This document shows, piece after piece, positions 148-9,753 of a stretch of 32,208 nt of DNA. Within the stretch, counting starts at the first letter, position 1. Each line of letters begins with the position of its first letter. The position numbers and the translations under genes are program-made. The stretch covers positions 1 to 32,208 of the forward strand of contig JAIRRB010000035.1 of the NCBI GenBank assembly GCA_031256195.1, in the 5' to 3' direction. The notes under the pieces are model-generated. The model saw only the letters and a program-made list of their open reading frames with translations. It was not told the DNA's origin and made no database searches. This DNA is from Treponema sp. Its GTDB lineage: Bacteria; Spirochaetota; Spirochaetia; Treponematales; Breznakiellaceae.

Positions 148-624
148 ATGCTATCCTTTTTTTATTTCCTGGTGTACTATATCTCCATGCGTTCGCTGGC
201 CCTCTCCCTCTTTACTCTTGTCATCAGCCTCATAGACGCAAAAACGTTCAGAATACCGGATGCTCTACTGTTATCCTGCTTTATCGTACTTGTCTTCCTT
301 GATCTTTCCCGCCCTGCTCAATTCTCTTTCTTTTTTGAACATTGCTTGACCGCCTGTTTCTGGTGTGCCGTCTTTTACTTCATTTATCAATACTCAGGTG
401 GACTGGGATGGGGAGATGTAAAATATGCCGCTCTGCTCGGATATGCCCTCGGCCTGGAAAAATCCTGCATTGCCTTCCTCTTTACCGCTTTTAGTGCTAT
501 ATTCATTTATGGTATAGGAATAGGTATTTTGGGGTGGAAAAAATCAGCTAAACTGCCCTTTGCTCCATTTTTGAGTTTCGGTACGCTGGCGGCTGAATTT
601 TTCAAAATCGGTTTGAGGGAATAA
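148..624 (+). CDS. Prepilin peptidase, short A24 form
   Basis: Inner-membrane aspartic protease that removes the leader of the pseudopilins encoded downstream. The 158-aa protein is almost entirely hydrophobic. It carries both A24 catalytic motifs: Asp30 in SLIDAKTFRIPD and Asp90 in GLGWGDVK. The tail LPFAPFLSFGTLAA is typical of PilD/GspO. The N-terminal cysteine-rich methyltransferase domain of classical GspO is absent, as in short TadV/CpaA-type peptidases, so N-methylation of mature pseudopilins may be missing or done elsewhere. Neither ATG 148 nor in-frame ATG 187 has a clear Shine-Dalgarno, so the start is uncertain. It ends 5 bp before the secretin gene, which makes it the first recognisable gene of the operon. 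Family assignment is firm. Confidence 0.88.
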   Translation: MLSFFYFLVYYISMRSLALSLFTLVISLIDAKTFRIPDALLLSCFIVLVFLDLSRPAQFSFFFEHCLTACFWCAVFYFIYQYSGGLGWGDVKYAALLGYALGLEKSCIAFLFTAFSAIFIYGIGIGILGWKKSAKLPFAPFLSFGTLAAEFFKIGLRE

Positions 625-629
625 CAGCT

Positions 630-2792
630 ATGAAAAATGGCCGCACTCTGATAGGCGTACTTCTTTTTCTTGTTCTGCCTTGGACGCTCATGGGGCAAAC
701 CATTAAAAAAATGGATTTCCGCAACCAGAGTATCAGTGACATTTTGATGGTTCTGGCAGATATGGGCAACCAATCCATCATCATTGACCCCAATGTGACG
801 GGAACAGCTACTTTTTATTTTAGTGACTCCGAATTTGAAGAAGCGCTGTTCCAATTTATTGATGCCTGCAACCTGTTTTGCGAAAAACGGAATAATGCGT
901 ATTATATCTCTAAAATACAGATCAGCGTGGCAAACGACCTTGTTTCCGTCCTGGCCGAAGATGTGGACATTGAAATGCTGATAAAAACCATTTCCCGAAA
1001 CGTTGGCAAAACCATCGTTTTTGACACGCTGCCGCGGGCTGTCATCAGTATCCATTCACAACAGGTCAAATTAAAGGATGTTCTGGAAATCATCATCAAA
1101 AAATACGCGGAATATTCGGTACAGGAAGAAAACGGCGCTTTTTATCTCAAGCGCACGGAATCAACGTCAAGCAGCCCGGACCGTCTTGGTTCCAATGCAA
1201 TCAGAAAAGACGGCGATCTGTATACCATGGAAATTCAGCGAGCCTCTTTTTCTGCAACTATTGCCCTTCTGTTCAAAACAGCCGGAAGAGAATACTCCAT
1301 GCTGCAGCGGGCCGACTCCACATTGGACAACCTGTACTTTGAAAGGAAGCCTTTTAACCAACTCCTTCGGCTGGTACTTGAACAGGCAAACTGCGATTTT
1401 ACGGAAAACAATGACATTTATTATATCTTTGAAGTACAACGGCGAGACATCTTAAAAAATTACAAAGAGATAATGGTAATTCAGATGCAGAACATTTCAG
1501 TCGAAGAAGCCGCAAACCTTCTGCCATCGGATTACAACAGCGCTTCTTTTCTTAAAATAAATAAAAACGCCAATTCAATTTATCTTACCGGCAGCACAGA
1601 GGAACTTCAGCCTATTGCCAATTTTCTGACCATGCTTGACGTACCGTCAAAAGATAAGTCTATTTTGCGTTTTGAGCTGCAATTTCTGAAAGTTACTGAT
1701 TTCCTCTCGCTCCTCCCCAAAGAACTTATCGCCGCAGGCCCTCTGGTAATACCCGATACCAACGCATTTGTAGTCAGCCTGACCGATGATATGACGGAAA
1801 AATATAATTCCTTTATTGGACTGGTTGATAAAAAAAACGTGGGAATGCCGATTCGGTTAAAATACATCAAAAGCGAAGAACTGGTTCAAAATTTGCCGCC
1901 CTCCGTACAAAAAGAGGAAATCATAGTCTCGGTAGACCCCAGTTTGGTATTTTACCGGGGTACCGATGAAAAACGGAACAAATTTCTTGAACAATTAAAA
2001 CTCATCGATCAACCAAAACCACAGATTCGCTATCAGCTCCTGGTAATCCAATATCAGCGGAACGATAATATTAACTGGAACAGGTCTCTTACGATAAACG
2101 GAAACCCGCTGAACAATCATACCGACATAAAATCAGGTATGTTTTCCAATCTGCTCAATGTCCAATTTGATGTCATATCGGGCCTTGGTCCGCAGATGGC
2201 CTTCCAGTTGAATCTTCAGTTGGGAGAGGATAGAGCCAGGGTGCTGGCGGATACAACATTAAATGGATTATCCGGACAGGAAATAAAATTTGAAAATACC
2301 AATACCTTCCGTTATCGTGACACTACCATCGATCCTGAAACAGGAAGGCCGTTTTACACAGGGGTAACCAGAGAAATACGAAGCGGACTTGTGCTGGGAA
2401 TCAACGGATGGGTTTCAGGTGATGGTATGGTAACCATGAAAGTCAACGCGGCGGTTTCAAAACAGGATGAAAGCGGGGCCAATGCCAGTGCAACGACCAA
2501 TCCGCCGCCAACTTCGGAAAGGATAGTGAACACCCAGGTCAGGACAAAATCGGGAACACCTATTGTTATTGGAGGTTTGCTGCAAATAGAAAAGGTTGAG
2601 TTAATACATAAAACCCCGCTTCTGGGCAGTATCCCAATCCTTGGGAGGCTCTTTCAGGATATAACCATATCGGATATTACCACAGAAATGGTTATCTATA
2701 TAATACCTAACGTACATCTTGGGGACAATTCACCGCCGAATTATTCAAGACGTTGTGAAGATTTATATAAAAAATATATCCTCAGCGAGTAA
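630..2792 (+). CDS. gspD: Type II secretion / pilus-type secretin (GspD-like) with extended N-terminus
   Basis: Outer-membrane channel of the system. A signal peptide covers about residues 1-23. Three successive STN/N0-like segments follow, at about 26-95, 105-175 and 195-270, each with the pattern 'repeat start, S/N-hydrophobic helix, Y-I/L end'. Then come N1-N3-like ring domains (about 280-460; 'IQMQNISVEEAANLL' is a standard N1 opening). The C-terminal secretin domain ends in GTPIVIGGLL and TPLLGSIPILGRLF, the family signature. At 720 aa it is longer than many GspD proteins because of the additional N-terminal segments. It lies between the prepilin peptidase and GspE. GspD and PilQ are hard to separate, but the GspG- and GspK-type genes downstream favour GspD. 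Confidence 0.9.
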   Translation: MKNGRTLIGVLLFLVLPWTLMGQTIKKMDFRNQSISDILMVLADMGNQSIIIDPNVTGTATFYFSDSEFEEALFQFIDACNLFCEKRNNAYYISKIQISVANDLVSVLAEDVDIEMLIKTISRNVGKTIVFDTLPRAVISIHSQQVKLKDVLEIIIKKYAEYSVQEENGAFYLKRTESTSSSPDRLGSNAIRKDGDLYTMEIQRASFSATIALLFKTAGREYSMLQRADSTLDNLYFERKPFNQLLRLVLEQANCDFTENNDIYYIFEVQRRDILKNYKEIMVIQMQNISVEEAANLLPSDYNSASFLKINKNANSIYLTGSTEELQPIANFLTMLDVPSKDKSILRFELQFLKVTDFLSLLPKELIAAGPLVIPDTNAFVVSLTDDMTEKYNSFIGLVDKKNVGMPIRLKYIKSEELVQNLPPSVQKEEIIVSVDPSLVFYRGTDEKRNKFLEQLKLIDQPKPQIRYQLLVIQYQRNDNINWNRSLTINGNPLNNHTDIKSGMFSNLLNVQFDVISGLGPQMAFQLNLQLGEDRARVLADTTLNGLSGQEIKFENTNTFRYRDTTIDPETGRPFYTGVTREIRSGLVLGINGWVSGDGMVTMKVNAAVSKQDESGANASATTNPPPTSERIVNTQVRTKSGTPIVIGGLLQIEKVELIHKTPLLGSIPILGRLFQDITISDITTEMVIYIIPNVHLGDNSPPNYSRRCEDLYKKYILSE

Positions 2793-2796
2793 TGGT

Positions 2797-4272
2797 ATGG
2801 AAAAAATAGACCTTAAAAAAATTGATTTTTCTGCTTTTCAGGGAGGGGCTTATTCGCGGGAATTTATGAGCCGAAATGGCGTAGTAAAGCTGGATGAGTC
2901 CGAAAACCAGGTAAAAGTGGCAATTGCAGACGGAGGCAACAGTGATATTACCACCTATATTGAAGGTTATCATATTCCCAAAAAAGTTATTTTCTATTCC
3001 GTTAGTAAAGCGGATTTTGCTGCATTCATAGGCGAGACAACCAACATTGACGCGGCGCTGGAACAGACAAAAGGAAATCGGGAAAAAAAATATACGCTTG
3101 ACACCATAACACAGGACGCGCCCATTATTAACATCATTAATGGCATCTGCATTGATGCAATCCGCCTTGAAGCTTCAGATATCCATATTGAAGCCCAGTC
3201 TGATTATATTCAAATTCGCTATAGGATTGACGGAGTTCTGCAAATATCAAAAAAAATTGAAAAATCCATTTTTTCATCCGTCTCGAACCGCATCAAAATA
3301 ATGGCCGGCCTTAATCCCCTGGAACAACGGCTGCCCCAGGATGGCCGCATGACCGTAGCTGTCGGCGGAGAAGACATTGATCTTCGGGTTTCCATAATTC
3401 CCACCACAAATGGGGAATCTATAGTCCTGCGAATATTTAATAAATCCGCAAAGTTGTTAAACCTCGATGAACTGGGGTTTGACACTGATGACCTTAAACG
3501 AATTCGAACCAGTGTTGATCAGCCCAATGGTCTGATTCTCCTTACCGGTCCCACCGGGAGCGGAAAAACAACGACTTTACATGCGCTTTTGGGAACTTTG
3601 GCCGTAAACGAACTAAAAATTGTCACGATTGAAGACCCGGTGGAACAGCTTATCTCCGGCATAAACCAGGTTCAAATAAATGAAGAAATAAATCTCTCCT
3701 TTGACGGGATGCTTCGCCGCGTACTCCGGCAGGACCCCAATGTCATCATGGTCGGAGAAATTCGGGATGCGGTTACCGCGGAGTTGGCGCTGCGTTCCGC
3801 CCTGACAGGCCATCTTATTCTATCTACCCTCCATACAAACGACAGCGTTTCGGTTATTGCCCGACTGGAAAATATGGGGTTAGAACCATATCTCATTGCT
3901 GCAGTACTGCGTTGTGTGGTTGCCCAGCGGTTGGTTCGTAAAGTATGTCCCCACTGCGCAAAACAGACTCCTGTTCCCAAAAAAATACGGGAACGTATGA
4001 AAAAGTACGAAATTGTTGCCGGGTCATCCATGCTGGTACCGAGCGGCTGTGAGTCGTGCGGACAGACCGGGTATCGCGGACGTACGGTGATTAGCGAGAT
4101 TTTACAGATCGATTCGGAAATCACCGAGATGATAATTAGGCAAAAACCCGCATCTGCTATTCTTCGTTATGCTGAAACTGCCGGAATGAGCAGCATGGCC
4201 GCCGATGCTCTGCAAAAACTGGTTGATGGGGTTACCACCCTTTCTGAAATAGAACGGGAGGTTATGCTGTAA
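2797..4272 (+). CDS. gspE: Type II secretion ATPase GspE
   Basis: Cytoplasmic hexameric ATPase that powers pseudopilus assembly. About residues 1-90 form a T2SSE_N-like domain. The catalytic part has Walker A GPTGSGKT (251-258), the Asp box and Walker B region (TIEDPVE; RQDPNVIMVGEIRD) and the His box (TGHLILSTLHTND). A zinc site follows, built from a CPHC pair and a CESC pair, characteristic of GspE/PilB. The ORF track begins at 2719, inside gspD. The ATG at 2797, 4 bp after the gspD stop, gives the normal family N-terminus, so that start is used (491 aa). The stop overlaps the gspF start (TAATG), which suggests translational coupling. Confidence 0.94.
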   Translation: MEKIDLKKIDFSAFQGGAYSREFMSRNGVVKLDESENQVKVAIADGGNSDITTYIEGYHIPKKVIFYSVSKADFAAFIGETTNIDAALEQTKGNREKKYTLDTITQDAPIINIINGICIDAIRLEASDIHIEAQSDYIQIRYRIDGVLQISKKIEKSIFSSVSNRIKIMAGLNPLEQRLPQDGRMTVAVGGEDIDLRVSIIPTTNGESIVLRIFNKSAKLLNLDELGFDTDDLKRIRTSVDQPNGLILLTGPTGSGKTTTLHALLGTLAVNELKIVTIEDPVEQLISGINQVQINEEINLSFDGMLRRVLRQDPNVIMVGEIRDAVTAELALRSALTGHLILSTLHTNDSVSVIARLENMGLEPYLIAAVLRCVVAQRLVRKVCPHCAKQTPVPKKIRERMKKYEIVAGSSMLVPSGCESCGQTGYRGRTVISEILQIDSEITEMIIRQKPASAILRYAETAGMSSMAADALQKLVDGVTTLSEIEREVML

Positions 4273-5471
4273 TGCCTCATTATCAATGTTTGGTGTACGA
4301 TACAAAAAGGAAAAAAACAAAAATAATGAGGAACGCCACCAATGAAAAGGAATTGGCGCTTTCATTCAGTGAAAACGGACAATACCTTATTTCCTGTAAA
4401 ATTGTCGAAGAAGTTAACTTATTCAAAACAAAAAAACATTTTAACAAGAAAATTATTCTTGAGTTTACTGATATAATGGCCAGCCTTTTACGGGCAGGAT
4501 TAACGCTTCAGGACGCCCTTGATTTATGCAGCTCAATTTCAGTTAACGCGAAAACATCTGTACTCAGCAAAACCATACTTGATGGTTTGAACCGGGGAAT
4601 GCCTTTTTATGAGGTGCTCAAAATATATACTTCCTCTTTTTCGCCTCTCTATCGTTCACTCATACGTCTTGGGGAAAAAACAGGTTCTGTTGGATCAGTA
4701 TTTTCCCGAATTAGTTCGTATTTGCAGGCCGAGAAGAAGATTCGCGGCAAACTGGGAAACATTCTCTGGTATCCGCTTTTGATTCTCGGTATCGCGGTTA
4801 CAGGATGCTTTGGGATAATTTTCTATGTCATGCCAAGAATGACCGATATTTTTTCCGCCTTCAATAACAACATAGCTGAAACAAACATCACACTGGACAA
4901 TATCTACCGTTCATTGTGGATATCTCTGGGGATCATAATAATTTTTGCAGTCACGGCGCTTTTCATTTTCATTTTTCGTCGAATGTCAAAATCATTTGCC
5001 TTTTTTATCGATGCGGCAGTCCTTTCGCTTCCTCTGGTTGGCCCCTTTATTCAGTCTCTGCAAACGCTTGATTTTTCATTTGCCATGGAAATGTTGACAG
5101 GCTCCGGCATAACCATAAACAATGCCCTCAAGGAATCAGCGGATGTCGTTACAAATCGGGCGTTCAGCAATGCCATACTTGAAGTATATGAGAAGATACT
5201 GCGGGGAGAGAAGCTTTCCTCTTCGTTTCTGGATAATAAGGCGTTTCCGGAATATATTGGAACATGGATGGCAGTAGGGGAAAAAACCGGTGCGGTAGAG
5301 CCGGTTTTTTCCCAGGTTCGAACATTTTTCCAGGCGGATGTCGAACATGGTTCCGAACGCCTGATGGGAATAATCGAACCTGCTTTAACCCTGCTTATCG
5401 GAATAATGGTACTGATACTTATAATCCAGTTTGTACTGCCAATTTTTTCACTTTATGGTAGAATTATCTAA
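4272..5471 (+). CDS. gspF: Type II secretion inner-membrane platform protein GspF
   Basis: Polytopic platform protein that couples GspE to pseudopilus growth. It is 399 aa, normal for GspF/PilC. Two T2SSF repeats are visible, each beginning with a 'F...M..LL.AG..L..AL' pattern: LEFTDIMASLLRAGLTLQDAL near residue 60, and LDFSFAMEMLTGSGITINNAL near 265. Each repeat has a GEKTG motif (LGEKTGSVGSVF, VGEKTGAVEPVF). Hydrophobic segments lie near 165-190, 215-235 and the C-terminus (ALTLLIGIMVLILIIQFVLPIFSLY). The start overlaps the gspE stop by one base. Confidence 0.94.
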   Translation: MPHYQCLVYDTKRKKTKIMRNATNEKELALSFSENGQYLISCKIVEEVNLFKTKKHFNKKIILEFTDIMASLLRAGLTLQDALDLCSSISVNAKTSVLSKTILDGLNRGMPFYEVLKIYTSSFSPLYRSLIRLGEKTGSVGSVFSRISSYLQAEKKIRGKLGNILWYPLLILGIAVTGCFGIIFYVMPRMTDIFSAFNNNIAETNITLDNIYRSLWISLGIIIIFAVTALFIFIFRRMSKSFAFFIDAAVLSLPLVGPFIQSLQTLDFSFAMEMLTGSGITINNALKESADVVTNRAFSNAILEVYEKILRGEKLSSSFLDNKAFPEYIGTWMAVGEKTGAVEPVFSQVRTFFQADVEHGSERLMGIIEPALTLLIGIMVLILIIQFVLPIFSLYGRII

Positions 5472-5482
5472 GGAAGGATATT

Positions 5483-5926
5483 ATGAAGAAGCACATATCG
5501 TCAATTCATGAGAATGGATGGACATTCATGGAAACCATCATTGTCATTGCCATAGTTCTCATCTTGACATCATCAGTGGGATACATGGCTATCCAATACC
5601 TTGACAAGGCCCGCGTCGCCACAGCCAAAAGTCAGATTGAATCTTTTTGTACCGCTCTTGAATCCTACTACATCGACTGTGGCAGATACCCGACCGCCGA
5701 ACAGGGTTTACAGGCGCTATGGCAAAAACCGGTCATACAGCCCATAAGTGATAATTGGGCAGGACCGTATATTTATAAAAGCATCCCAAAAGATCCCTGG
5801 GGGAATTCTTATGAATACACAGCCCCTGGGCACAATGGGCTGCCTTATGGCATCCGATCCTTTGGATCAGATGGCAAAGAGGGAGGAGAGAAAAATGATG
5901 CGGATATCACCTCTTGGGGTGAGTAA
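5483..5926 (+). CDS. gspG: Major pseudopilin GspG
   Basis: Main subunit of the periplasmic pseudopilus. The leader is MKKHISSIHENG, cleaved after Gly12; the mature protein would begin WTFMETIIVIAIVLIL with Glu at +5, as peptidase and assembly need. Trp at +1 replaces the usual Phe. The globular part is classic GspG: RYPTAEQGLQAL, WAGPYIYKSIPKDPWGN, and the calcium-loop ending SFGSDGKEGGEKNDADITSW. At 147 aa it has the normal length. AAGGAAGG precedes the ATG. This gene is the best evidence that the operon is type II secretion rather than a type IV pilus. Confidence 0.95.
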   Translation: MKKHISSIHENGWTFMETIIVIAIVLILTSSVGYMAIQYLDKARVATAKSQIESFCTALESYYIDCGRYPTAEQGLQALWQKPVIQPISDNWAGPYIYKSIPKDPWGNSYEYTAPGHNGLPYGIRSFGSDGKEGGEKNDADITSWGE

Positions 5927-6101
5927 AGAAAACGGTTATGTGCTGTTGCGGAGTTTACTGGCCCTGTTTATCGTAGTTCTCTGTTTTGCTTCGGTGTTGG
6001 CAGGAATTACCGTATTTTCCCATCGCAGCGCTGTCCTGCTTGAACAAACAGAACAGGAAATTCAAACCAGAAATGAAGCAGTCAGAAATATACTCAGATA
6101 A
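5895..6101 (+). CDS. Helix-only mini-pseudopilin
   Basis: A 68-aa protein read from ATG 5895, in a different frame from the end of gspG. The ORF track extends it falsely to 5748. GGAGGAGAG immediately upstream decides the start. It has a short basic leader ending KENG, then YVLLRSLLALFIVVLCFASVLAGI, a type III signal-like helix, and stops after about 30 more residues. Position +5 is Arg, not Glu. Among pseudopilins, lack of Glu5 is usual only for GspK. There is no room for a globular head domain. Its place between GspG and another minor pseudopilin suggests a GspI/GspH-like partner; the exact class cannot be assigned. Confidence 0.68.
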   Translation: MMRISPLGVSKENGYVLLRSLLALFIVVLCFASVLAGITVFSHRSAVLLEQTEQEIQTRNEAVRNILR

Positions 6102-6504
6102 AGTAACCCATTGTTGTGGATTCACGTTAATGGAAACATTGGTATCCATTGCGTTAATTTTAACCCTTAGTTATTGTATCATTGTTGCGTTCTCTGTCGC
6201 TACCAGAGCAAATTTGAAATCCATGGTCGCCATTAGAACTGCCCATAAAATACTGGAAACAGACCGCTTTATTCGTGAAATGACAGATTCCCTGCATGTT
6301 CCTTATTGGTTAAAACCGGAAGAATCAATTGCGGAATTTAAAAATGAATTATGGCGTTCAAGAGCGGGAAAATATATACAGGAAATTACCACTTTATATG
6401 ATTCTTCAGGTTTGCCAAGGGGTGTTACAGTAGGTTATACTATAGGCGTCAGACACATAACAACATCAGCCCTATTTCCTTTTTTACAAGTTACGGAGAA
6501 ATAA
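6073..6504 (+). CDS. Minor pseudopilin (GspI/GspJ type)
   Basis: Read from ATG 6073, overlapping the previous gene by 29 bp, it encodes 143 aa. The leader ends HCCG, followed by FTLMETLVSIALILTLSYCIIV, a textbook prepilin N-methylation motif with Phe at +1 and Glu at +5. The rest is a small mixed domain with no motif I recognise. Gene order (after G, before K) points to the GspI/J slot of the tip complex. The ORF track start at 5986 is too early. It acts in the inner membrane and then in the pseudopilus tip. Confidence 0.8.
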   Translation: MKQSEIYSDKVTHCCGFTLMETLVSIALILTLSYCIIVAFSVATRANLKSMVAIRTAHKILETDRFIREMTDSLHVPYWLKPEESIAEFKNELWRSRAGKYIQEITTLYDSSGLPRGVTVGYTIGVRHITTSALFPFLQVTEK

Positions 6505-6506
6505 AA

Positions 6507-7427
6507 ATGAAAAGAGAAGAAGGAGCGGTAGAATTAGGGGCAGTAATCATCCTTTTTTTTGTATCGGCTATATTTGCAGGTTCAGTATTGTTTATTCAGG
6601 CAAACATGACCTATTTCAGAAGAAACAGTTTTGAACAGGAAGAAAAAATAAAAGCGGAAAATATGTTAAAGGAAATCGTGCGATCATTCCAACCGTTGAA
6701 AGGCTACGACTATGATGCCGTCAATAATCCGTTACTTTTGGATTTACAGAACAAATATGCCGATTACAATCTTGCAATCATGGATATTTCAAGCGGTTAC
6801 CATCTTGATTTTCTGACCGATAGTGATTTGCATGATACAAGACTAAGAGAATTCCTTTTTCGTAATGGAAACCCTTCTGAATTTATTGCATGGCGAAACA
6901 GTCATGGATTATCAACCGTTAAAACGGCATGGAGAAGTTTTTTACGGGATGAAGCGTGGGATTCCTGCGTTTCGTACGGTTGGATACATACCTCACAGAC
7001 AGATTCTTTTGCTTTCAGTGTTGTAAGCGCATCGTATAAAACCGGCGACTTAAAATCCCTTTTTCCGCTGGTAAATCAGATGCCGCTCATAAATGTGAAT
7101 ATGGTTTCTCCGGACATCATTACCCCGCTTATCATGCGGCCGGTCTTTGAAGTTAAGAAACCTTCAGAAAAAGCAGAAACGCTCAAAAACAAACTGCTGC
7201 AGGGACAGGTTATACTTTCCGATCTGTCATCATATTTGGAAATCCCCAAAAATCATGCTTTGTTTACATATCTTGGTACAAAGACCGCATTTTGGAGAAT
7301 TATTTTTTGCTATAGGTCGGGAATGTATGTTGAGGCGGTTGTCGCCGCAATTCCGAAAAAAGATGGTGGTATACAGGAAATTGCACAATATATACTGATA
7401 GACAGGAATATACGCTATGAGCTATAA
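6507..7427 (+). CDS. gspK: GspK-like minor pseudopilin
   Basis: 306 aa. A very short leader (MKREEG) is followed by AVELGAVIILFFVSAIFAG, with Gly rather than Glu at +5, as is typical of GspK. The segment PLINVNMVSPDIITPLI (about 193-209) matches the 'INVNTA.PEVL.AL' turn of the GspK helical domain. GspK caps the GspH-I-J tip complex. Size is in the family range. GGAG lies upstream of the ATG. Its last 11 bases overlap the next gene. The GspK assignment rests on the leader type, the INVN motif and gene order. Confidence 0.8.
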   Translation: MKREEGAVELGAVIILFFVSAIFAGSVLFIQANMTYFRRNSFEQEEKIKAENMLKEIVRSFQPLKGYDYDAVNNPLLLDLQNKYADYNLAIMDISSGYHLDFLTDSDLHDTRLREFLFRNGNPSEFIAWRNSHGLSTVKTAWRSFLRDEAWDSCVSYGWIHTSQTDSFAFSVVSASYKTGDLKSLFPLVNQMPLINVNMVSPDIITPLIMRPVFEVKKPSEKAETLKNKLLQGQVILSDLSSYLEIPKNHALFTYLGTKTAFWRIIFCYRSGMYVEAVVAAIPKKDGGIQEIAQYILIDRNIRYEL

Positions 7428-9186
7428 AACAAAAAATAGCGCCATGCTGCCAAGACCGTCATTTTCCCTCTTTATTTTGGATTTACCCCGTTTGAGAGGG
7501 AAAGCGCTGGAAAACGCCGCACGGAATTGTTTGGTTGGCCTATACCCTGACAATCTTGGTGATCGTCCCCTGGTTATAAAGCGTAATAACCAGAAAAAAA
7601 GATCGTATCTTGTTTTTGTACTGAATCCGGCGCTGCCTTATAAACCGCTTCCCGTTTCCACATTGTTTGCCATGAAATATTTTTGCAGGGGAAACGCCAG
7701 TGTGCTTTTCATGGAATCAAATTGGATGGAATTCATCCTGATTGAAAATGGGGCGCTTGTAAAATCAGAAGTAAAAACAAGAGATGCCGCTATTTCCGAA
7801 GAAACCATTATTCGGTTCTTTGGCAAAGAGAATAATCAACAACCCCGCCCTGAAGGGCAGGGTATTAAACCCCTCAGCGCGAATAAAATTGATGTTTTCT
7901 GTCATAAAAATGATGTTCATCTGTTTAGCGATAACAAACACAATTCTGATATTATTATACACATTCTTGAAAATGAATTGGGTAAATTCCCTTTGTATAC
8001 CTATTCAATCTTTGATCATCTTTCCATTGCAAAAAGAATACAAAGATTTTTTTTAATATTTTTTTCACTATTGGTTATGGGAGGAATAAGTTACAATATT
8101 TACAATCAGCATCAAATGAATAAAAAAGAAATCTTGCGTACCAAGTTACTGGAAGAAGAAGAAAAATTGCACTCCGAAGCAGAACAAAAGGACAGGATGC
8201 AGGTTCTGACATTGCAGGAACGCTACCGCCAGCTTGTGGAACATAAAACTGCCGGTCCCTATGAAACCATGGATACTATTTCCCGTTGTTTGGATGACAA
8301 AGCGCGAATCAGTTCCATTACGATTAAAGATGGGTTTTTTCAAATGGAAACTCAGGCTTCCGATTCTTTGGAAATTCTTAGAGTATTTGAAGATACCGTT
8401 AAAGTACAAAACCCCATGCTACAGCAAATTCATCCCTTAAAAAACGGGGAGCGTTTTACCATTAGCGGTACCGTTTTGTCAGAAAAAGAAAGCATCGATA
8501 CTTCACTTTCCACGAAGGAGCAGATAGTTATTCTGGAAGCGCTTATTGTTAAAGAAGAAAACAAAAACCATGGAAAGCTGCGTCCTTCGGATTTTGGTGT
8601 TAATATTCGGGGACTATTGACAAAGTGGAGATGTTCCATTAACGCATACCAATATTTAACAGTAGAGAACGATCGGGAAATCGAATTTTCAATCAAAGCA
8701 ACAAGCGGTAATTTTTTTAGTTTTCTTCGGGAGGCATCAATAAACAATAACGGATGGATATTTACCCTGGTACAAATTCGTAATCTAGCACCCCAGAATG
8801 CCGTAGACGGGCTTTTCAGGGTAAGGGCGGAAACAGTTGTTGAAGATGGGACGGATACCATTGAACCATATAAGGAATCCCCGGTAACCGGTATAAGCCG
8901 ACATTTTTTTATTCCTCCCCCTCCGCAGCCTCAAGTGATAAAAGCATCTCCCTTGCCCATTCCTCCTCCTCCGCAGGTAAAGCCTGAACCAGCTCCATGG
9001 CTTGCGTATATCGGGGTTACCAGTGATTATACCGGAAGCCAGTTTATTTATGTAAAAAATACCCGAAACGGGGCCATGTTGCGGCTGGAAAATATCGCTG
9101 AAGGGGAAAACCGATATATAATAACGCCAATGGGAACCATAGAAGCGCAAATTGAAGGAAAATTATACGAAATCACGAGGAGGTGA
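7417..9186 (+). CDS. Composite assembly-platform protein (GspL/PilN + GspM/PilO + GspC/PilP-like)
   Basis: 589 aa with one transmembrane helix near 210-230 (FFLIFFSLLVMGGISYNIY). The N-terminal 200 residues would be cytoplasmic and resemble the reduced actin-like part of GspL/PilM-N. After the helix comes a coiled coil (KEILRTKLLEEEEKLHSEAEQKDRM). A PilN-like periplasmic fold follows (ARISSITIKDGFFQMETQASD...ISG), then a second such fold (about 395-485) resembling PilO/GspM, then a proline-rich linker (IPPPPQPQ, IPPPPQVKP). The C-terminal 65-residue beta domain (YIGVTSDYTGSQFIYVKNTRNGAM) resembles GspC-HR/PilP. No separate L, M or C gene is present in the operon, so one protein probably does all three jobs. 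Residues about 142-157 are encoded by a palindromic repeat. Domain identities are by pattern, not search. Confidence 0.7.
   Translation: MSYKTKNSAMLPRPSFSLFILDLPRLRGKALENAARNCLVGLYPDNLGDRPLVIKRNNQKKRSYLVFVLNPALPYKPLPVSTLFAMKYFCRGNASVLFMESNWMEFILIENGALVKSEVKTRDAAISEETIIRFFGKENNQQPRPEGQGIKPLSANKIDVFCHKNDVHLFSDNKHNSDIIIHILENELGKFPLYTYSIFDHLSIAKRIQRFFLIFFSLLVMGGISYNIYNQHQMNKKEILRTKLLEEEEKLHSEAEQKDRMQVLTLQERYRQLVEHKTAGPYETMDTISRCLDDKARISSITIKDGFFQMETQASDSLEILRVFEDTVKVQNPMLQQIHPLKNGERFTISGTVLSEKESIDTSLSTKEQIVILEALIVKEENKNHGKLRPSDFGVNIRGLLTKWRCSINAYQYLTVENDREIEFSIKATSGNFFSFLREASINNNGWIFTLVQIRNLAPQNAVDGLFRVRAETVVEDGTDTIEPYKESPVTGISRHFFIPPPPQPQVIKASPLPIPPPPQVKPEPAPWLAYIGVTSDYTGSQFIYVKNTRNGAMLRLENIAEGENRYIITPMGTIEAQIEGKLYEITRR
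7841..7887. repeat. Palindromic intergenic-type repeat inserted in a coding region
   Basis: ACCCCGCCCT/AGGGCAGGG forms a hairpin with one mismatch, followed by GGGTATTAAACCCCTCAGCGCGAATAAA. The last 28 bases match 31453-31480, which is non-coding, at 26 of 28 positions. Here the element is in frame and encodes about PRPEGQGIKPLSANK. Confidence 0.75.
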
Positions 9187-9192
9187 CAAGAA

Positions 9193-9753
9193 ATGAACAA
9201 AATTATTTTGGTGCTCTCTCTGGCAGCGCTATTGGCCGACTGCCGGTCTATCTCGGTTCCCAAACGTGCGATACAGGATGCAGGCATGATATATGCCATG
9301 GTTTACGATTACGAGAATACCCCGGTATATGGTGTCACTGTTTTTATCGATGGAAAAAAGTATACAGAATCCGATTTACAGGGACGTTTTGTTCTGGAAT
9401 TCAGAAAAGGCGGCAAATACACTATCAGATTGGAAAAATCGGGCTATGAACTTATAGAAGATACTTTTACCTATGACCCCATGAATGTATTTTATTTCAA
9501 GATGGTAAATGCGTCTCAACTGTTATCTCAGGCAGAGGAAGCTATGGAGCAATATGCATACATGGAGGCGGAAGAGTTGATAAACCGTATGCTTAATCTG
9601 GAACCCAACCGTCCGGACATACTATATTTTCAAAGTATAGTCCTGTATCGTCAGGGACGCAAAGCTGAAGCAAGAGTAATACTTGAAAATTTGCAAAGCG
9701 GGGGAATAGACGGAAAATATATAAAGGAGTTTTTGGATAAACTATCTGATTAA
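9193..9753 (+). CDS. Small lipoprotein with carboxypeptidase-regulatory-like fold and TPR-like helices
   Basis: 186 aa. A short hydrophobic leader ends LAALLADC, which fits a lipobox apart from the unusual Asp at -1. About residues 35-85 look like a carboxypeptidase-regulatory/PEGA-type beta domain (YAMVYDYENTPVYGVTVFIDGKKYTESDLQGRFVLEF). About 100-180 are helical with TPR spacing (AEELINRMLNLEPNRPDILYFQSIVLYRQGRKAEARVILENL). It starts 6 bp after the fusion gene with GAGGAGG upstream, so it is the last gene of the secretion operon. A pilotin-like role in secretin targeting is an inference from position only. Confidence 0.72.
   Translation: MNKIILVLSLAALLADCRSISVPKRAIQDAGMIYAMVYDYENTPVYGVTVFIDGKKYTESDLQGRFVLEFRKGGKYTIRLEKSGYELIEDTFTYDPMNVFYFKMVNASQLLSQAEEAMEQYAYMEAEELINRMLNLEPNRPDILYFQSIVLYRQGRKAEARVILENLQSGGIDGKYIKEFLDKLSD

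Follow-up and report, generated by a model that had tools for sequence, protein, structure and literature searches.

The window, which is the whole 32,208-nucleotide stretch of DNA analysed, contains a gene for a protein (LMC) that is very likely (probability about 0.9) a natural fusion of three genes for the inner-membrane platform of the type II secretion system (T2SS). LMC consists of GspL, followed by a helix-less periplasmic part of GspM, a proline-rich linker and a GspC HR-type domain that also lacks its helix. The fusion is conserved within a single clade, and it very likely arose from separate genes for L, M and C, in that order. Secretion activity, stoichiometry and the binding of GspE and GspD are inferred.

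Gene, operon and domain layout

LMC has 589 aa and is encoded by 589 codons at 7417..9186 on the + strand in an uninterrupted reading frame. The assignment of the whole gene is supported by profile alignments, operon comparison and an AlphaFold2 model of the full-length protein (mean pLDDT 78). The first 11 bases of the gene are shared with the 3' end of the gspK-position gene, and a 6-base gap separates the stop from a lipoprotein gene. The operon order is O-D-E-F-G-I-J-K-LMC-lipoprotein, with every gene on the + strand.

The operon begins with a GspO-like prepilin peptidase (148..624; Pfam Peptidase_A24, E 8e-15). This is followed by a GspD secretin with an N0 domain (630..2792; Pfam Secretin 4e-28, type_II_gspD_N0 1.5e-9), a GspE ATPase (2719..4272; Pfam T2SSE 1e-121, best NCBIfam match type_II_gspE) and GspF (4272..5471; Pfam T2SSF 7e-41). 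The TTG start listed for gspE results in a 74-base overlap with gspD. Since gspE relatives encode about 490 aa, this start is likely too early, with the true one probably lying near 2797. The major pseudopilin GspG (5483..5926) scores above the NCBIfam typeII_sec_gspG cut-off. The minor pseudopilin in the GspI position (5895..6101) is assigned by sequence and weak minor-pilin matches, and the one in the GspJ position (6073..6504) by its prepilin N-terminal motif (TIGR02532). The GspK-position protein (6507..7427) is conserved in related operons. With a secretin, GspE, GspF, GspG, a prepilin peptidase and pseudopilins in one locus, the gene set of a T2SS is present.

The lipoprotein encoded 3' of LMC (9193..9753) has CarboxypepD_reg-like and TPR parts, as indicated by Pfam and by related operons. 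Most spirochaetal T2SS operons have such a gene 3' of C or of the fusion, irrespective of fusion state (the window, loci L027, L036, L043 and L103, and most other related loci). It is possible that the protein is a pilotin-like factor for the secretin.

The N-terminal segment of LMC is a cytoplasmic GspL/PilM-like (actin-like) domain (residues 1-204, 7417..8028), modelled by AlphaFold2 as a mixed domain at residues 16-200. Residues 205-274 (8029..8238) contain the only membrane helix (208-226, from hydropathy), which continues into a long periplasmic helix; the model has a single long helix at 204-274. The first ferredoxin-like domain (GspL periplasmic/PilN; residues 281-357, 8257..8487) is modelled at 281-354 and the second (GspM/PilO, without its own membrane helix; residues 364-473, 8506..8835) at 366-471. 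The proline-rich linker (residues 474-522, 8836..8982) is disordered, with pLDDT below 50 at 473-519. The C-terminal segment (residues 523-589, 8983..9183) is a GspC HR/PilP-like beta domain, also without its own membrane helix, and is modelled with six strands at 529-586. The alignment for the full-length model had 13 sequences. A separate model of the M-C segment, made from 19 sequences, has a pLDDT of 82 (about 93-97 in the C domain) and also gives six strands. The mutual packing of the domains is not resolved because the pTM is low (0.39).

An earlier note, made from the sequence alone, had claimed a single-helix protein with a cytoplasmic N part, a coiled coil, two PilN/PilO-like folds, a linker and a beta domain. 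This layout held, since the AlphaFold2 model has the same order, with the long helix at 204-274. Its claim that the operon has no separate L, M or C gene also held on operon annotation.

Assignment of the L, M and C segments

The three segments were compared by hhalign profile-profile alignment of 13 fusions with class-wide families of separate L, M and C proteins; family-only sets were also compared. Residues 9-357 align with the separate L family (E 9e-34), residues 364-473 with the separate M family (E 3e-14) and residues 523-589 with the separate C family (E 5e-10). Column-shuffled controls reached a score of at most 19, compared with 77, 104 and 261 for the real alignments. The spirochaetal C family was in turn aligned with GspC, using Pfam T2SSC-recognised proteins of other Spirochaetota plus E. 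coli K-12. It matches over the HR domain with an E of 5e-6 and a score of 43-49 (shuffled maximum 17), and the spirochaetal M and L families have no match to this GspC alignment.

Searches with existing models were much less sensitive. Pfam and NCBIfam scans did not recognise the LMC protein, and a Geminin match (E 0.05) was taken as chance. Pfam T2SSL matches neither LMC nor the separate spirochaetal L relatives, which suggests that the whole lineage is too divergent for this model. Pfam PilN matches three of the 17 separate L relatives, with a best E of 0.0017, and T2SSM matches one separate relative weakly (E 0.0076). Comparison with the single E. coli K-12 GspL, GspM and GspC sequences gave nothing and is too insensitive. 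A profile sequence search of solved structures returned only designed beta-propellers, coiled coils and unrelated proteins.

Foldseek matched the N part of LMC to PilM (2ych, 5eou, 3jc8_Ma) and to the GspL cytoplasmic domain (5tkw, prob 0.97; 4pht_X, 0.95). The first ferredoxin-like domain matched periplasmic EpsL (2w7v, prob 0.99) and 5hl8 (prob 0.99, TMt 0.74), and the second matched PilO (2rjz and 3jc8_Oa, prob 1.00). No segment had a match at E <= 0.001; these E-values, despite probabilities of about 0.95-1.00, are likely due to a query that is multi-domain and diverged. With these moderate fold matches, LMC has the GspL architecture of an actin-like cytoplasmic domain, one membrane helix and a periplasmic ferredoxin-like domain. 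It also has the ferredoxin-like periplasmic domain after L that is expected of GspM/PilO. For the C-terminal beta domain no Foldseek match was found. Its fold is therefore assigned only by profile similarity and operon position, that is, by the GspC HR profile link through the separate C family, together with the six modelled strands. The N part matched best to 3hrg, the Bacteroides actin-like protein BT_3980 of unknown function, which is possibly a PilM/GspL-type relative.

Other copies of L, M or C were searched for in the window's genome (G000), a draft that is 81% complete, and in the complete genome of Breznakiella homolactica RmG30 (G034; Breznakiellaceae, Treponematales). In the draft, Pfam T2SSL was not found and there was no PilM beyond actin-family background. 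Two PilM_2 matches there (463- and 344-aa frames, E 0.005 or worse) were set aside as this background; we take them to be FtsA/MreB-type actin-family proteins from size alone. The separate-L and separate-M profiles matched only the fusion itself in this draft. A separate-C match at contig C151 (E 0.1, 54-aa frame) was taken as chance. The separate-C profile missed the window's own C domain, so the absence of a diverged separate C in the draft rests on weak sensitivity. The complete genome is a better test of a missing separate C, and in it all three profiles match only the fusion.

The claim of the earlier note that one protein replaces GspL, GspM and GspC therefore held. Relatives have separate L, M and C at the same position, each aligning to the predicted segment, and structural matches were obtained to PilM/GspL-cytoplasmic, EpsL periplasmic and PilO folds. 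No separate genes were found elsewhere in either genome. The C segment is supported by operon position and profile only.

Related operons and origin of the fusion

A search of the same family found relatives in 27 of 200 genomes, and a GspF search indicated that nearly all genomes with this T2SS type also have an L-M-C region. Within the family, L-M-C is fused in the window, G034, G077, G041, G047, G087, G089, G057, G036 (partial), G195, G172, G167 and G196. An L gene with an M-C fusion is found in G021 and G064. The three genes are separate, and follow each other as L, M and C, in G039, G103, G159, G038, G091, G081, G109, G049, G030 and G042, with M or C not resolved in some of these ten genomes. 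In about 10 family genomes, separate genes at the operon position of LMC encode an L of about 385 aa, an M of about 165 aa and a C of about 140-200 aa. Separate genes in the same order are also found in many other Spirochaetia families. Further half-fusions of the L plus M-C type occur in G267, G263, G329, G414, G470 and G420, and full fusions in other families occur in G294 (614 aa), G372 and G484 (about 460 aa) and G430 (456 aa).

Several of these loci have peculiarities. The fusions of about 460 aa, from family f2 (L102:7965-9359, L106:7794-9173), have a much shortened cytoplasmic part, with the GspL domain cut to about 70 residues, so the link to the ATPase must differ in this family. In G089 and G057, which are of one genus (L033:6697-8292, L034:6709-8334), the C domain lacks the last three of its six strands and stops right at the lipoprotein gene; it is possible that HR function is altered there. 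In G430 the fusion (L124:5824-7194) is located shortly 3' of gspG, and neither a GspJ nor a GspK gene was recognised between the two. The draft genome G047 has two T2SS loci (L030, L045), one fused and one of the unfused type, which may be due to its 7% contamination.

A tree was built with IQ-TREE from concatenated D, E, F and G of 40 loci. All scored fusions except that of G430 form one clade with support of 100/100. Since most of the lineages around this clade have separate genes, these are likely the ancestral state. The fusion of G430 is likely a second, independent event, although the long branches make this less sure. At least four more changes on the tree have to be assumed for the M-C half-fusions. 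This repeated, independent fusion of M and C suggests that the two act as neighbours. The T2SS is patchy even in the window's genus, where about five genomes (family f1) carry this type, and the T2SS tree disagrees with the families, with f15 adjoining the window. Both observations suggest loss and lateral transfer.

The dN/dS is about 0.05-0.34 for L, M, linker and C each (pairs where computable), which indicates purifying selection on every part, and the proline-rich linker is the least conserved. Hydropathy shows one hydrophobic stretch in 15 of 15 fusions checked, located between the cytoplasmic and periplasmic parts of L. The separate L, M and C proteins have at least one membrane helix each (a few L with a second weak stretch), and the half-fusion M-C proteins have one helix each, at the M end. 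The N-terminal helix present in separate M relatives is absent from LMC. The C segment also has no N-terminal helix of its own and no C-terminal PDZ or coiled coil; the PDZ part is absent from all spirochaetal C relatives aligned. Since there is one helix per fusion and one per separate protein, fusion deleted the M and C helices. In each fusion the join runs from the periplasmic end of one protein into the periplasmic part of its neighbour, with loss of the second helix. Topology is preserved in this way, which argues that the product is meant to work as a single chain.

Proposed function, alternatives and significance

In known systems GspE is bound by the cytoplasmic domain of GspL, ferredoxin-like domains pair GspL with GspM, and GspC HR binds GspD N0 (PMC6882859, PMC3815138, PMC9239104). 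By analogy, one LMC chain would run from its N part at the GspE ATPase across the membrane to its C segment at the GspD secretin. GspE and the N0-bearing GspD are thus only the expected partners of these two segments, without binding data. A single chain would set L:M:C at 1:1:1, as had been claimed from the sequence; this remains an inference, as proteolysis could undo it. A bolder reading is that LMC forms a complete and functional platform in which each protomer has one helix and the ratio is strictly 1:1:1, so that the GspM and GspC helices and the two-fold excess of GspC found in Klebsiella are dispensable for type II secretion. The evidence leans towards this reading, but only slightly.

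One alternative is that the gene is fused but the product is cut or internally initiated, giving separate L, M and C parts in the cell. The linker (473-522), being disordered and least conserved, is a plausible cleavage site. However, M and C pieces released by cleavage would lack the membrane helix that all separate relatives keep, and pieces from an internal start would have no export signal. This alternative is very unlikely. It is also very unlikely that the C-terminal beta domain is not a GspC HR but a GspB-like HR or an unrelated domain, with only L and M replaced and the secretin link elsewhere. In favour of this are the missing fold match, the HR fold shared by GspB (PMC9239104) and a weak Pfam T2SSB match (E 0.15) in one separate C relative. 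Against it, the separate C genes have the GspC layout of one N-terminal membrane helix, a linker and an HR, their family matches GspC HR profiles, and profile searches of the two genomes found no other C-like gene.

There is also very little support for a type IV pilus machine (PilMNOP) in place of type II secretion. In its favour, PilM-PilN, PilO and PilP are relatives of L, M and C, and the scores of the secretin, E and F fall short of the NCBIfam cut-offs. However, GspG passes the NCBIfam T2SS cut-off, type II models are the best match for GspD, GspE and GspF, and no PilT-family protein scored over cut-off in the window's genome or the complete G034; together these indicate a T2SS and not a type IV pilus. 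The single compact operon with its pseudopilin set also argues against a pilus. Finally, an assembly or sequencing artefact joining three genes, conceivable in a draft, is all but excluded by purifying selection and by the same fusion in at least 14 genomes, one of them a complete isolate (G034).

The reading of LMC as a fused T2SS platform can be compared with known systems. Proteobacterial T2SS (Pul, Out, Eps, Xcp, Xps) have the same domain types and a similar operon, with GspD, E, F, G, pseudopilins and prepilin peptidase, and with L and M after K. They differ in that GspL, M and C are three proteins with three helices, whereas LMC is one protein with one helix and no PDZ part; in E. coli K-12, C heads the operon and in the window it is last. 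Type IVa pili have comparable actin-like, two ferredoxin-like and HR/PilP-like domains, but in the four proteins PilM-PilN-PilO-PilP, and a pilus is not indicated here. The separate L, M and C of other Spirochaetia (e.g. the complete genome G039) are direct homologues at the same operon position, but are unfused and each have their own membrane helix. Natural GspA-GspB fusions in Vibrio/Aeromonas-type T2SS (PMC9239104) are also envelope fusions, but of parts that act with the secretin and peptidoglycan and not in the core platform. No earlier description of an L-M-C fusion was found in the literature searched, which was open-access only. Within that scope LMC is a previously undescribed form of an already known machine, and it is both conserved and deeply rooted in the phylogeny.

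How many copies of GspC a T2SS contains is unsettled. Klebsiella PulC:E:L:M was determined as 2.13:1:0.97:0.99, or about 12 GspC per 6 L and M (PMC6882859), so that PulC is present at about two per L and M, whereas LMC has all three in one chain. The Xanthomonas platform has been modelled as six trimeric CLM complexes (PMC11981180). Full function is reported to depend on self-interaction of the membrane helices of GspC and GspM (PMC3815138). Detection models with a separate gspC as mandatory (PMC6668835) would score LMC systems as incomplete. LMC also offers a single-gene platform construct for structural work. A conserved fusion that would force a 1:1:1 ratio and drops both helices makes copy number and the need for these helices testable. 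The group of treponeme-like gut bacteria that carries the fusion would provide a natural experiment on the copy number of the parts and the membrane anchors that a T2SS needs.
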